From Noviherbaspirillum pedocola (GTDB lineage: Bacteria > Pseudomonadota > Gammaproteobacteria > Burkholderiales > Burkholderiaceae_D): a DNA stretch of 64,000 bases. Shown piece by piece: positions 138 to 7,994 of this stretch. Made by a program: the position numbers and the translations under genes. The stretch spans positions 248,001 to 312,000 of the forward strand of contig NZ_JAEPBG010000002.1 of assembly GCF_016632335.1 (NCBI RefSeq). The letters are read 5' to 3'. A model generated the notes under the pieces. It was not told where the DNA came from. It made no database searches and worked only from the letters and a program-made list of their open reading frames with translations. Each line of letters opens with the position of its first letter. The stretch's first letter is position 1.

Positions 138-143
138 AATGGG

Positions 144-170
144 ACAGCCCGGGCTTGCCGGGCTGTTTTT
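144..170 (+). terminator. Rho-independent terminator
   Basis: A perfect 9-bp stem (arms 144-152 and 158-166, loop 153-157) is followed by five T residues. It lies just after the stop codon at 137 and separates that gene from the convergent DUF3443 gene. Confidence 0.85.
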
Positions 171-206
171 GCTGAAACCGATCGGGTTCACCCCGGTCGG
201 GCATTT

Positions 207-1520
207 TCAGTACGCGAAGTAGGGCCCGGTGCCGCCCGACGTGCTTGCTCCCTCGATCGCCGTGAACACATTGCGTCCGAAGAAGAAGGGCAGGCCCCAG
301 TCAAACATGGTGCTTGCCAGTCCCGAGCCGCCGAGTGAGTCGAACGCGGTATTGTTGGTCGAGAACAGGCTTTGCGCATTTGCTACGGTGAAATTGACCG
401 TGCCGCTGGCATTGTTCAAGCCGGTGTTCGTGGCAGTCAGCGTCTGTGACGAAGGCGGACAGTAGAAACCGGAACTGCAGGCCGGAATCGTCGTGTCATT
501 GAAGAAATAACCATTCGACCCGCTGTCGATGAAGGCGCTCCGGAATGTCCGTCCCTTGTAGACAGTGGTAAAGGTGCCGGTGCTTGCGCTGATGGTATAG
601 ACGGTGGCATTGCCCAAGCCATTGTTGCCCGCCGTGCCGATGCCGAATACCAGCGTGCCGATTGCCGTGCCGACGGTGCCGCCAGGCAGGCTCGGCATCT
701 TCAGCAGCACGCCGTTGTTGTTGACCGCGAATTTCGCTACCGGGTTGCTGACCTGCTGCGCCGCAGGCACGGCGACACCCTGGCAGGTACTGGAACTGCA
801 GGCATAGTAGACGCCGATGTTCGCGCTCTGCGCGCAGGAACTACCGCAATCCTCGCGCTGCGGGCCGATGCCGATAATGCCGTTGCCGCCGAAGGATTGG
901 ACGGTTGCGGCCACAACGCCGGTGCTGGAGCATGCCGACGGAATGTTGGCAAAGTTCGGGTCGGACATGGTTTGCACCGGGAGTGAAGCTGCGGTCTCGC
1001 CACCGATGCGAACATCGGCCAGACGCACAGGTCCCCACACCGAGCTGTCAGCGAACTGGGTGCATTCGCCCAAGGCGCCCGCGCTTGTCGATTGCTGTGG
1101 CAGCCCAAGCGAAGGGTCGAGCAGCGAGGAGAACACACGGATGCCTGACGAACCCGTGTCGACAATCATGTGATCGATGGTTTGACAGCGGTTCGTGCCC
1201 GGCGCGCAAATCGTCACGCTGGTGTACGGCACATTGACCGTATTGCCTGCAGGTCCGGCATCCACGACAACGGACACCGCATTCGCAGCCAAGGCTGTGC
1301 CATCTTGCGCGGTGCTGCCACTCGTACCCGAGCCGCTGGTCGGCGTGGTACTGCGCGGGGCCGAGTTCTGAGCAGCGTCGGAGCTGCCGCCGGAACTGCT
1401 GCCGGAGTCATTGCCGCCGCCGCCGCAGGCAGCAAGTACGAAAAGCAAGCCAAGACTGGCCGCGGCCAGAGAACGGCGCAAGGCGTTGCCGCCACAGGAA
1501 ACGCTATTCGAGGTCTTCAA
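207..1520 (-). CDS. DUF3443 family lipoprotein, candidate pepsin-like aspartic peptidase
   Basis: 437 aa. A signal sequence ends in a lipobox (LAAC, Cys32), followed by a Gly/Ser/Thr-rich linker to about residue 75, so it should be a membrane-anchored lipoprotein. The globular part matches what I recall of DUF3443. It shows DTGSSG at 121-126 in a hydrophobic context, GNGIIGIG near 212-219, a second DSGSNG at 332-337, and a C-terminal stretch around LPFFFGRNVFTAIE. This order resembles the two catalytic Asp motifs, the hydrophobic-Gly strand and the final lobe strand of pepsin-type enzymes; peptidase activity is my inference. The start is TTG at 1520: an AGGAG site lies 6 nt upstream, and no in-frame ATG fits the signal peptide. 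It overlaps the end of the DUF2844 gene by 17 nt, implying translational coupling. Confidence 0.88.
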   Translation of the reverse strand: MKTSNSVSCGGNALRRSLAAASLGLLFVLAACGGGGNDSGSSSGGSSDAAQNSAPRSTTPTSGSGTSGSTAQDGTALAANAVSVVVDAGPAGNTVNVPYTSVTICAPGTNRCQTIDHMIVDTGSSGIRVFSSLLDPSLGLPQQSTSAGALGECTQFADSSVWGPVRLADVRIGGETAASLPVQTMSDPNFANIPSACSSTGVVAATVQSFGGNGIIGIGPQREDCGSSCAQSANIGVYYACSSSTCQGVAVPAAQQVSNPVAKFAVNNNGVLLKMPSLPGGTVGTAIGTLVFGIGTAGNNGLGNATVYTISASTGTFTTVYKGRTFRSAFIDSGSNGYFFNDTTIPACSSGFYCPPSSQTLTATNTGLNNASGTVNFTVANAQSLFSTNNTAFDSLGGSGLASTMFDWGLPFFFGRNVFTAIEGASTSGGTGPYFAY

Positions 1521-1947
1521 TGTTCACTCCTGCTGGTACTGCCTGCGGCAAATAGGCCTTGCCTGCCAGCGCACGCATCCGCCCTTCGGAAAGAATCACA
1601 ACATTGGGCTTGTTCACTTTCAGCTGACGGCGGCCGATGCGTCCGGAAGCCGCTTCCTGTTGAAAATCACTGAAGTATTGCCCGAGAAGCTGACCGAGGT
1701 CAGGCTTGACCGGTCCTTGCCAGGTAACGGCGAAAACCTTGCCGGCATTGTCTGCATATTCGCGCACCGTCGTTCCGGCTTCGGTTTGCATTTCATGGAC
1801 GGTATAGCTGCCCATACTGCTGCTGCCGCTGGCCTTGGCGCGCATCTGCGTTCGGTCGCTCTGTACGCTGCTGACATCGCCGCCAAGCGCCGCGAAGGAC
1901 AGGGCCGGTATGCCGAAGAGGAGTAAGGCGAAATATTTGGAGTTCAT
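1504..1947 (-). CDS. DUF2844 family exported protein
   Basis: 147 aa. A short signal peptide (residues 1-19, ending SFA before ALGGD) precedes a small Cys-free domain with the DUF2844 features YTVHE and REYAD, then a V-x-W segment and Y-F near residue 90. I chose the ATG at 1947 because the signal peptide begins directly there; the longer frame adds an Arg-rich stretch without export features. The family has no known function. It is the first gene of a two-gene unit, and its last codons overlap the TTG start of the DUF3443 lipoprotein. An accessory role (chaperone, inhibitor or substrate) for that protein is plausible but unproven. Confidence 0.82.
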   Translation of the reverse strand: MNSKYFALLLFGIPALSFAALGGDVSSVQSDRTQMRAKASGSSSMGSYTVHEMQTEAGTTVREYADNAGKVFAVTWQGPVKPDLGQLLGQYFSDFQQEAASGRIGRRQLKVNKPNVVILSEGRMRALAGKAYLPQAVPAGVNIEDLE

Positions 1948-3228: not shown

Positions 3229-4059
3229 TCACGGTTTTTCAAAGACGCCGAGAACGGAAGTTCCCCAAGGAAACTTAAAATATTGGCCCATCGGAGACTC
3301 GGCAGAAAATATCTTTGAAAGGAGAAAGTTTACCCAGCGACTGGGAGCGGCATGCTCCTTTTGAACTGCATTCTCTACTTCTTCTTTTGAAAGATTCTTG
3401 GGCTTCGTTTTGCGGGATAACCAATACAGTGGACTTAAGAAAAACATGAAATATCGGGCATCGATAAGGTTGAATCCAGTGAGCTTTGCTAACCTGCCAT
3501 AATCCGATATGTTATATCGCCTTAGGTGGTTGGAATAATCGTCATTGTAAGACCAGAAATACATTAGAGCCGGTGTCGTAACGATCAATAAGCCGCCAGG
3601 CTTAAGGCTTTCATATGCTTGTTTGAGTATGGAAATATCGTCAGGGCAATGTTCTATCACATCAAGCAAAAATATGACATCCCATTTCTCTTTCCAGTTT
3701 GTCGCCATTAAATCAACTTGATATAAGCTTGCTTCTTTCGGAAGAATTTTGCGTGCTCCAATAAGAGCTACTTCAGAGGAATCCCCTAAAGCAATTTCTT
3801 CAAAATTATGTGGAAATTTCTCGGAAAGATATTTTACCCAACCGCCGACCCCGCCACCTAAATCGATTGCGGTTTTGTGTGATTCTTTCAGATGCTTTTT
3901 TAAGGAGCCGAGTAAGAATTTATGCCGTCCAACATACCAAAAATGTTTGGATTGCATATTAAGTAGCGTCGTAAAACCTGACTCTTGATATTCTTCGTTC
4001 CTATGTGCTACAGGGGTTTCTGGCCGGTATATTCCGTCTTTGTCGAGAGTGTAGCTCAT
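3229..4059 (-). CDS. Class I SAM-dependent methyltransferase
   Basis: 276 aa. The S-adenosylmethionine site is clear: DLGGGVGG at about 66-73 (motif I), an acidic strand end near ALGDSS, and DVIFLLDVIEHCPDD around 115-130, typical of type 11/12 methyltransferases. The segment after it (LKPGGLLIVTTPA) is the usual post-core strand. The C-terminal third is hydrophobic (YFMFFLSPLYWLSRK), suggesting a lipid or membrane-proximal substrate; relatives often act on quinones or surface glycans, but the substrate cannot be told here. Codon use is clearly AT-richer than the flanking chromosome, and the gene stands alone near a tRNA-Ser and an integrase relic, consistent with horizontal acquisition. Confidence 0.88.
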   Translation of the reverse strand: MSYTLDKDGIYRPETPVAHRNEEYQESGFTTLLNMQSKHFWYVGRHKFLLGSLKKHLKESHKTAIDLGGGVGGWVKYLSEKFPHNFEEIALGDSSEVALIGARKILPKEASLYQVDLMATNWKEKWDVIFLLDVIEHCPDDISILKQAYESLKPGGLLIVTTPALMYFWSYNDDYSNHLRRYNISDYGRLAKLTGFNLIDARYFMFFLSPLYWLSRKTKPKNLSKEEVENAVQKEHAAPSRWVNFLLSKIFSAESPMGQYFKFPWGTSVLGVFEKP

Positions 4060-5833: not shown

Positions 5834-6078
5834 GAAGTGCTCCTGTTCGTCAACCGTACTCAATTTCAGATGGGTGCCGGAAGGCTTTAGTTCTGTGATC
5901 GCGCGAAAAATTGAATGGCATGTCACTTCCCGCGCAACGATGGCGCTCTTCGTGCCGATGTGCCCGCCGGTAGCGGGCGAGCAGCATGTAATTGCTGTTC
6001 TGCAATGTATTCGCCACGTACCCTGCGCTGCTGAGGTATGATCCGCGTGCTAAAAAATTGCCAAGTAAGGAGAATGCG

Positions 6079-6483
6079 ATGAGAGGAGCAAACGATTTCG
6101 GCAAGCTGGTGTTGCGCGCCTGCCTGGCGATCCTGATACTTTTTCACGGCGTCTCGAAGCTCATCAATGGCGTCGATCCGGTCCTTGGCATGCTGGCCAA
6201 GGCGGGCTTGCCGGGGGCATTGGCTTACCTGGTGTATATCGGAGAGATCCTGGCGCCGCTGTGCGTGTTGTTTGGTATCTGGACGCGGCTGGCAGCGGGC
6301 ATCATCGTGATCAATATGCTGACTGCACTGTGGCTGGCGCATACCAGCCAATTCTTCGCTATCGGAAAAACCGGTGGTTGGGCGCTCGAACTGCAGGGGT
6401 TTTATTTATTTACCGCGCTTGCGCTGATCTTTCTTGGCGCCGGCCGATACAGTGTCGGCGGCGCCAGCGGTCGGTGGAATTGA
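6079..6483 (+). CDS. DoxX family integral membrane protein
   Basis: 134 aa with four predicted membrane helices (about 10-28, 48-68, 72-92 and 105-125). The family pattern is visible: LRACLAILILFHGVSKL, then G-LVYIGEILAPLCVLFG, then R-AAGIIVINML. DoxX proteins are small inner-membrane proteins; some are linked to thiosulfate-quinone oxidation or thiol stress, most are unassigned. The ATG at 6079 has an AAGGAG site 6 nt upstream, which decides it over the earlier in-frame start at 5992. It appears monocistronic. Confidence 0.9.
   Translation: MRGANDFGKLVLRACLAILILFHGVSKLINGVDPVLGMLAKAGLPGALAYLVYIGEILAPLCVLFGIWTRLAAGIIVINMLTALWLAHTSQFFAIGKTGGWALELQGFYLFTALALIFLGAGRYSVGGASGRWN

Positions 6484-6908: not shown

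Positions 6909-7994
<1,086 letters not shown>

Follow-up and report, generated by a model that had tools for sequence, protein, structure and literature searches.

The window, that is the whole stretch of 64,000 nucleotides of Noviherbaspirillum pedocola DNA analysed here, encodes close to its start a DUF3443 protein whose current annotation reads 'unknown function' only. We propose that this protein is quite probably an exported, membrane-anchored and disulfide-stabilised pepsin-type aspartic endopeptidase of the clan AA type, made together with DUF2844, a small protein that likely binds it. The proposal builds on the sequence, its conservation, a predicted fold and the pairing of the two genes. 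The following features of the window are referred to below:

1504..1947, minus strand: DUF2844 gene, small and predicted to be exported, 147 aa from the chosen ATG (PF11005, E 3e-43)
207..1520, minus strand: DUF3443 lipoprotein gene, 437 aa, TTG start (PF11925, E 7e-138)
1425..1436, minus strand: lipobox L29-A30-A31-C32, recognised from sequence, with Cys32 as predicted lipid-anchor cysteine
1290..1424, minus strand: low-complexity linker rich in Gly, Ser, Thr and Ala, residues 33-77, outside the PF11925 match
210..1289, minus strand: predicted pepsin-like two-lobed domain, residues 78-437 (AlphaFold2 model of residues 76-437, Foldseek against PDB)
1143..1160, minus strand: catalytic motif 1, DTGSSG, with Asp121
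1032..1055, minus strand: flap-like hairpin region, F156 to G163, a hairpin in the AlphaFold2 model
864..881, minus strand: N-lobe psi-loop motif GIIGIG (hydrophobic-hydrophobic-Gly)
510..527, minus strand: catalytic motif 2, DSGSNG, with Asp332
273..302, minus strand: C-lobe psi-loop region DWGLPFFFGR

Pepsin-type enzymes had been assumed to be eukaryotic; according to the accessible text of a 2009 survey, homologues were found in seven bacterial species and were devoid of signal peptides (PMC2761423). If our proposal is true, an exported, cysteine-rich family with at least 553 related stretches would change the picture of pepsins as eukaryotic or rare in bacteria, offer new material on the origin of the two-lobed fold and provide a testable function for two Pfam families at once (DUF3443 and DUF2844). 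No published paper naming DUF3443 or DUF2844 was found in a search that reached a minor part of the subscription literature, and of the papers listed on bacterial aspartic or pepsin-like families none concerns DUF3443, as judged by title and beginning of the abstract. The string PF11005 (DUF2844) does occur in Plasmodium papers; it looks like a part of gene names there.

The DUF3443 gene and its product

In a Pfam scan of the window protein, PF11925 (DUF3443) covers residues 78-437 with 460 bits, compared to a cut-off of 25 bits. By eye, AGGAG is seen six bases 5' of the TTG codon. On the plus strand of 207-1520, the frame starting at 207 is interrupted by stops. The protein begins with a signal peptide ending in the lipobox (LAAC, residues 29-32). 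A lipobox-like motif was detected by a regular expression in 108 of 122 loci, and by eye in 10 of the remaining 14. At a few loci (L023, L014/L054 and L117), repeat-like extra N-terminal regions replace the bare linker ahead of the DUF3443 domain.

Just beyond the DUF3443 stop, at window positions 141-175, an inverted repeat that is rich in GC and has T residues after it was noted by eye; it is absent from the output of our terminator and promoter pattern scan, whose yield was about that of shuffled sequence. Other genes of the window, such as those for a methyltransferase (3229-4059, minus strand), a DoxX family protein (5992-6483, plus strand) and adenosine deaminase (6978-7994, plus strand; PF00962, E 1e-92), are ordinary neighbours.

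Predicted fold

A structure prediction had been suggested as a check of the two-lobed enzyme that was originally proposed from the sequence. Using the window domain (residues 76-437, a chain of 362 residues) together with 60 relatives as AlphaFold2 input, we obtained a confident model (pLDDT 96.8, pTM 0.94, no residue below 70). Foldseek against PDB returned 582 matches at E<=10 and 511 at E<=1e-3. The best 50 of these 511 are all pepsin-type aspartic proteinases (best E 9.3e-12) and include endothiapepsin, rhizopuspepsin, penicillopepsin, Aspergillus and Candida proteinases, Irpex proteinase, renin and BACE1. The model, a single chain, thus matches two-lobed enzymes of the pepsin type, and the fold check does not refute the original proposal. 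Superpositions within the best 50 are loose (TMq 0.48-0.57, TMt 0.47-0.62, rmsd 5.7-9.8 Å), which suggests that the angle between the lobes or the placement of loops may differ from that in pepsin. PDB sequence searches with DUF3443 retrieved nothing relevant.

Catalytic motifs and their conservation

The original prediction compared Asp121 and Asp332, about 210 residues apart, with the two Asp motifs of pepsin. We find Asp121 within MIVDTGSSGIRV and Asp332 within AFIDSGSNGYFF, at a spacing of 211, and both GNGIIGIG between them and GLPFFFGRNVFTAIE near the C-terminus are positioned as described. Conservation was assessed by running a profile of 61 sequences on the open frames of L001-L123 and the window, which matched 123 of 124 sources (122 loci and the window; L039 was without match) and yielded 118 distinct sequences. 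All of them keep both Asp residues. Site 1 reads DTGS in 114 sequences, DSGS in two, DTMS in one and DTAS in one; site 2 reads DSGS in 101, DTGS in 14 and DSGT in three, with Ser or Thr after both Asp residues in all 118. The pattern Asp-[TS]-Gly-[STA] is present at site 1 in 116 sequences, the other two keeping the Asp, and at site 2 in every sequence.

These counts are subject to selection: the 80 loci from named genomes had been found with three peptide patterns, two of which contain the catalytic motifs, and the loci from the family and phylum genome search are the best-scoring ones. Both Asp residues are also invariant in a 36-row alignment confined to the window and the genome-search loci, which is free of the peptide-pattern bias. 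A divergent set of 13 lower-scoring PF11925 matches from genomes of the same family retains both as well, with Asp-[TS]-Gly-[STA] at both sites in all 13 members; a fourteenth match, a broken remnant in genome G070, was excluded and is the exception. The alignment of homologues, likewise proposed earlier as a check, hence reveals no loss of either Asp in 118 distinct and 13 divergent sequences, and conservation to this degree argues against a chance occurrence of the pair.

Psi-loops, flap and cysteines in comparison with pepsin

In the N-lobe, the pattern Gly-[IVL]-[LIV]-Gly has both Gly residues (columns 136 and 139) in all 118 sequences and all 13 divergent members, and hydrophobic-hydrophobic-Gly is found in 118 of 118. 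The C-lobe Gly (column 334) is equally present in 118 of 118 and in 12 of 13 divergent members (lost in one), but it mostly follows Asp-Trp: the residue two before it is Asp in 110 of 118 (Asp-Trp-Gly in most), whereas it is hydrophobic in A1 enzymes. Leu-Pro-Phe comes after this Gly in most sequences, with Phe at Gly+3 in 117 of 118. Two hydrophobic residues precede it in five of the 13 divergent members. In pepsin, Gly302 precedes Asp303-Val304-Phe305. These three residues are described as the C-lobe loop of pepsin in the accessible part of PMC11313796.

The flap-like hairpin places W162-G163 where pepsin has Tyr75-Gly76, in a register set by spacing (42 profile columns from the first Asp to the Trp, versus 43 residues to Tyr75 in pepsin). 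Column 84 at this place is Trp in 117 sequences and Phe in one, and column 85 is Gly in all 118; the divergent members have Trp (10) or Tyr (3), followed by Gly in all 13. We infer from this register that the conserved Trp may be the counterpart of the pepsin flap Tyr. Tyr75 of pepsin is contacted by Trp39. At what we take to be the register of Trp39, seven residues after Asp121, DUF3443 has Arg in 118 of 118 sequences, and Arg (11) or His (2) in the divergent set. Four divergent members (L159, L160, L161 and L162) form a group with DSGT at site 2 and no Asp before the C-lobe Gly; three of them carry Tyr-Gly at the flap place, and the group is nearer to pepsin than other DUF3443 proteins.

Each of ten cysteines is conserved in at least 114 of 118 sequences. 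This fits an oxidising compartment, and the domain would be stabilised by disulfides. When the two lobes are aligned with each other, they meet on the catalytic motif with a score of 24.6, compared to a mean of 13.7 and a maximum of 24.2 in 40 column shuffles; recognition between the lobes at the motif is only just above the best shuffle.

The partner DUF2844

In the window, the DUF2844 gene lies directly upstream of DUF3443 on the same strand, overlapping it by 17 bases, and its product has an N-terminus that reads as a cleavable signal peptide. DUF2844 occurs at 79 of 80 loci from named genomes and at 40 of 43 other loci. Among the 122 loci matched by the DUF3443 profile it is present at 119, and at every one of these it lies upstream of DUF3443 with the same orientation. 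The DUF3443 domain starts within 400 bases of the DUF2844 stop in 101 of the 119. As to the exceptions, L009 is cut off by the end of its contig, and a different contig of its genome carries DUF2844; L014 begins inside a DUF2844 match. L123, from a metagenome bin and with both DUF3443 motifs, lacks DUF2844 in the surrounding 5 kb, and a search of its genome, run without positive control, did not find one either. At the divergent loci, DUF2844 is present in 11 of 13; L158 is located at a contig start, its DUF2844 being on another contig, and in the genome of L150 the second copy lies on a different contig.

Among 145 genomes of the same family, 37 have both genes, none has DUF2844 only, one has DUF3443 only and 107 have neither (Fisher 8.6e-34, with kinship ignored). 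The DUF3443-only genome is G070, whose remnant (L133, 2013-2657, minus strand) is a frame of 214 residues without either catalytic motif. Copy numbers agree in the five genomes with two or three DUF3443 genes, while G120 has one DUF3443 and two DUF2844. The distance matrices of the two proteins correlate with r 0.36 (116 pairs; maximum of 2000 permutations 0.23), a modest value that shared ancestry alone could give. Among other neighbours, clusters judged by eye to be gene-like are present at no more than about 20 of the 80 loci from named genomes; larger clusters at the pair itself were read as antisense or shifted frames and rejected. We read DUF2844 as a near-obligate exported partner of DUF3443, and we know of no DUF2844 partner for PecA or other PE-PGRS peptidases.

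The DUF2844 model (pLDDT 94.1, pTM 0.87) shows a helix, four strands, a second helix and three strands. No PDB match reaches E 0.001 (TM 0.30-0.37). Five of the first six rows are chains of Bacteroides periplasmic proteins, two of them titled DUF2874 (E 0.065-0.20, TMq 0.33-0.36). The accessible text of PMC2954215 connects DUF2874 with PepSY and BLIP proteins and with a possible inhibitory function. DUF2844 resembles this group of periplasmic proteins in being a small exported alpha-beta protein (PMC2954215, same text), but no sequence link was found (probability 0.2 against five PepSY proteins), and a comparison of DUF2844 with itself revealed no repeat (score 8.6, where shuffles average 9.9). 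PDB profile matches of DUF2844 to eight sequences, mostly designed tandem-repeat proteins, were dismissed as an effect of composition rather than relationship; the best has a whole-sequence E of 1e-5 that arises from repeats of about 10 bits each. Since the sequence tests gave no support and the fold matches are weak, a role as inhibitor or prosegment is a lead only. Speculatively, DUF2844 might be an inhibitor, a folding helper or a specificity subunit of DUF3443. A doubtful but specific variant is a zymogen encoded by two genes: DUF2844 would serve as a prosegment in trans for an enzyme that has no N-terminal prosegment of its own, folding or blocking it until it is placed outside the cell membrane.

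Family assignment

The original prediction of an A1-like enzyme with two lobes holds for the pepsin-type predicted fold and the Asp pair, but not for strict A1 membership, as a PF00026 (Asp, A1) match is lacking. The window protein has none up to E 10, and the 17 families that 61 DUF3443 domains match at E<=1 do not include PF00026. Within the phylum, PF00026 scores above the cut-off in 6 of 398 genomes, and it is without match in the window's genome. NCBIfam assigns no peptidase name. An hhalign comparison of DUF3443 with bacterial A1 homologues aligned 16 columns near the second motif (probability 3, E 0.014), which says little because the A1 profile consists of four sequences only. Asp_protease_2 gave sub-threshold matches to a part of the first lobe, with E 0.081 for the whole window protein and E 0.0061 for the domain alone; such matches occur in 3 of 61 domains, E 0.0061 being the best. 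The PE-PGRS_C aspartyl peptidase-like family (PF20729) matched 2 of 61 domains below threshold. In single-domain scans that covered 40 of the 61, the match was seen in L051 at residues 42-167 (E 7.7e-5); L051, which has the best E of the 61 domains, attains 22.6 bits against a cut-off of 33 bits. In the retropepsin-type family A2 of MEROPS each chain contributes one lobe to a homodimer, whereas both motifs are found here in one modelled chain.

With the A1 pepsins of MEROPS (endothiapepsin, rhizopuspepsin, pepsin), DUF3443 shares the two lobes, two Asp-[TS]-Gly-[ST] motifs in the same order and spacing, the N-lobe hydrophobic-hydrophobic-Gly and a Gly-x-x-Phe in the C-lobe loop. It differs from them in the missing A1 profile match, in that most members have Trp where pepsin has the flap Tyr and have Asp-Trp-Gly in the C-lobe, in Arg at the Trp39 place (in the presumed register), in its ten conserved cysteines and in being a lipoprotein. 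Shewasins and other bacterial A1 homologues are likewise bacterial and bilobed with two Asp residues, but, going by the accessible text, have no signal peptides, shewasin D being mainly cytoplasmic, whereas DUF3443 proteins have lipoboxes (PMC2761423; PMC4814920). The C-terminal domain of PecA and PE-PGRS proteins is, in the part of the paper available, also a bacterial aspartic protease with DTG and DSG, surface-exposed in PecA; unlike DUF3443, it is mycobacterial and sits on PE proteins with type VII secretion (PMC6819658). RloA of Pseudomonas, according to the accessible sections, shares with DUF3443 that it is a secreted bacterial aspartic peptidase, in its case with a disulfide, but is of the retropepsin type with one lobe per chain and has Ala after DTG, where DUF3443 has Ser or Thr and both motifs in one chain (PMC12239564).

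We read DUF3443 as a separate family inside the pepsin/retropepsin fold group (clan AA type), distinct by sequence from MEROPS A1. That it belongs to family A1 proper is very unlikely in our view: A1-type structures do make up the best 50 of 511 fold matches, the motif order is that of pepsin, and in some divergent members the flap place reads Tyr-Gly and the C-lobe motif hydrophobic-hydrophobic-Gly, but these points are set against the PF00026 result and the low probability in the comparison with the four bacterial A1 sequences.

Two further open frames touch on this subject. L124 (1501-2544, minus strand) encodes a bacterial A1 homologue whose C-lobe sequence, MVDSGTNGIYLN, is close in wording to the second motif of DUF3443. 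In another bacterium of the phylum, a frame of 2837 aa (L134; G281:C33:24000-33094) contains FNLLVDTGSDSLLLF and ADGIIGF, a pattern like that of an aspartyl peptidase N-lobe; it was considered as a DUF3443 candidate and left out of the counts (PF11925 E 3.9e-4, below the cut-off; our own profile without match).

Proposed function

Both proteins are most likely exported, since signal sequences are present. DUF3443 would then be lipid-anchored at Cys32, presumably on the outer side of the cell membrane, and fold with disulfides. The two lobes of the single chain would each provide one Asp (Asp121 and Asp332), which may jointly activate a water molecule and cut peptide bonds of proteins in the cell envelope or outside the cell. 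DUF2844, encoded just upstream, would bind the enzyme.

Plant xylanase inhibitors are an example of a pepsin scaffold that does not cut. DUF3443 could similarly be a binding protein or an enzyme inhibitor, a reading to which the loose superposition, the Trp in place of the flap Tyr and the Asp in the C-lobe motif of most members lend some weight, as does the fact that no activity is known for the family. We regard it as unlikely in the light of the fully kept Asp pair and of the Ser or Thr after it in all 118 sequences. Of thirteen pepsin-like proteins in a published set, the eight active ones have both Asp residues according to the accessible text, which discusses loss of activity in connection with Asp changes (PMC11313796). 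The close pairing with a small exported protein, and the lack of any other gene-like neighbour cluster beyond about 20 of the 80 loci, would also suit a two-protein complex whose main task is not proteolysis (e.g. envelope assembly or adhesion), the Asp residues being structural. We give this least credence of all, as conservation of the catalytic pair throughout the distinct and divergent sequences is hard to explain without catalysis. The reading as an endopeptidase with a bound partner is the one we prefer.

Distribution

Within the same family, 38 of 145 genomes, from 18 of 44 genera, carry PF11925 above the cut-off. Across the phylum 10 of 398 genomes do, and a further one has a match at E<=0.001. 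The occurrence of PF11925 is patchy: the 145 include three more genomes from the genus of the window, and all three lack it. A scan of named genomes yielded at least 596 stretches, at least 553 of which encode a DUF3443 relative; the best 80 were kept and, judged by their record titles, belong to Burkholderiales, Acidobacteria, Gammaproteobacteria, Neisseriaceae and other groups. The same place was seen in two collections for some loci (e.g. L014 = L054, L018 = L081), so that locus counts are not all independent; sequence counts use distinct rows. A DUF3443-DUF2844 pair is also present in a metagenome bin labelled Bordetella parapertussis (L103), a label that looks doubtful.
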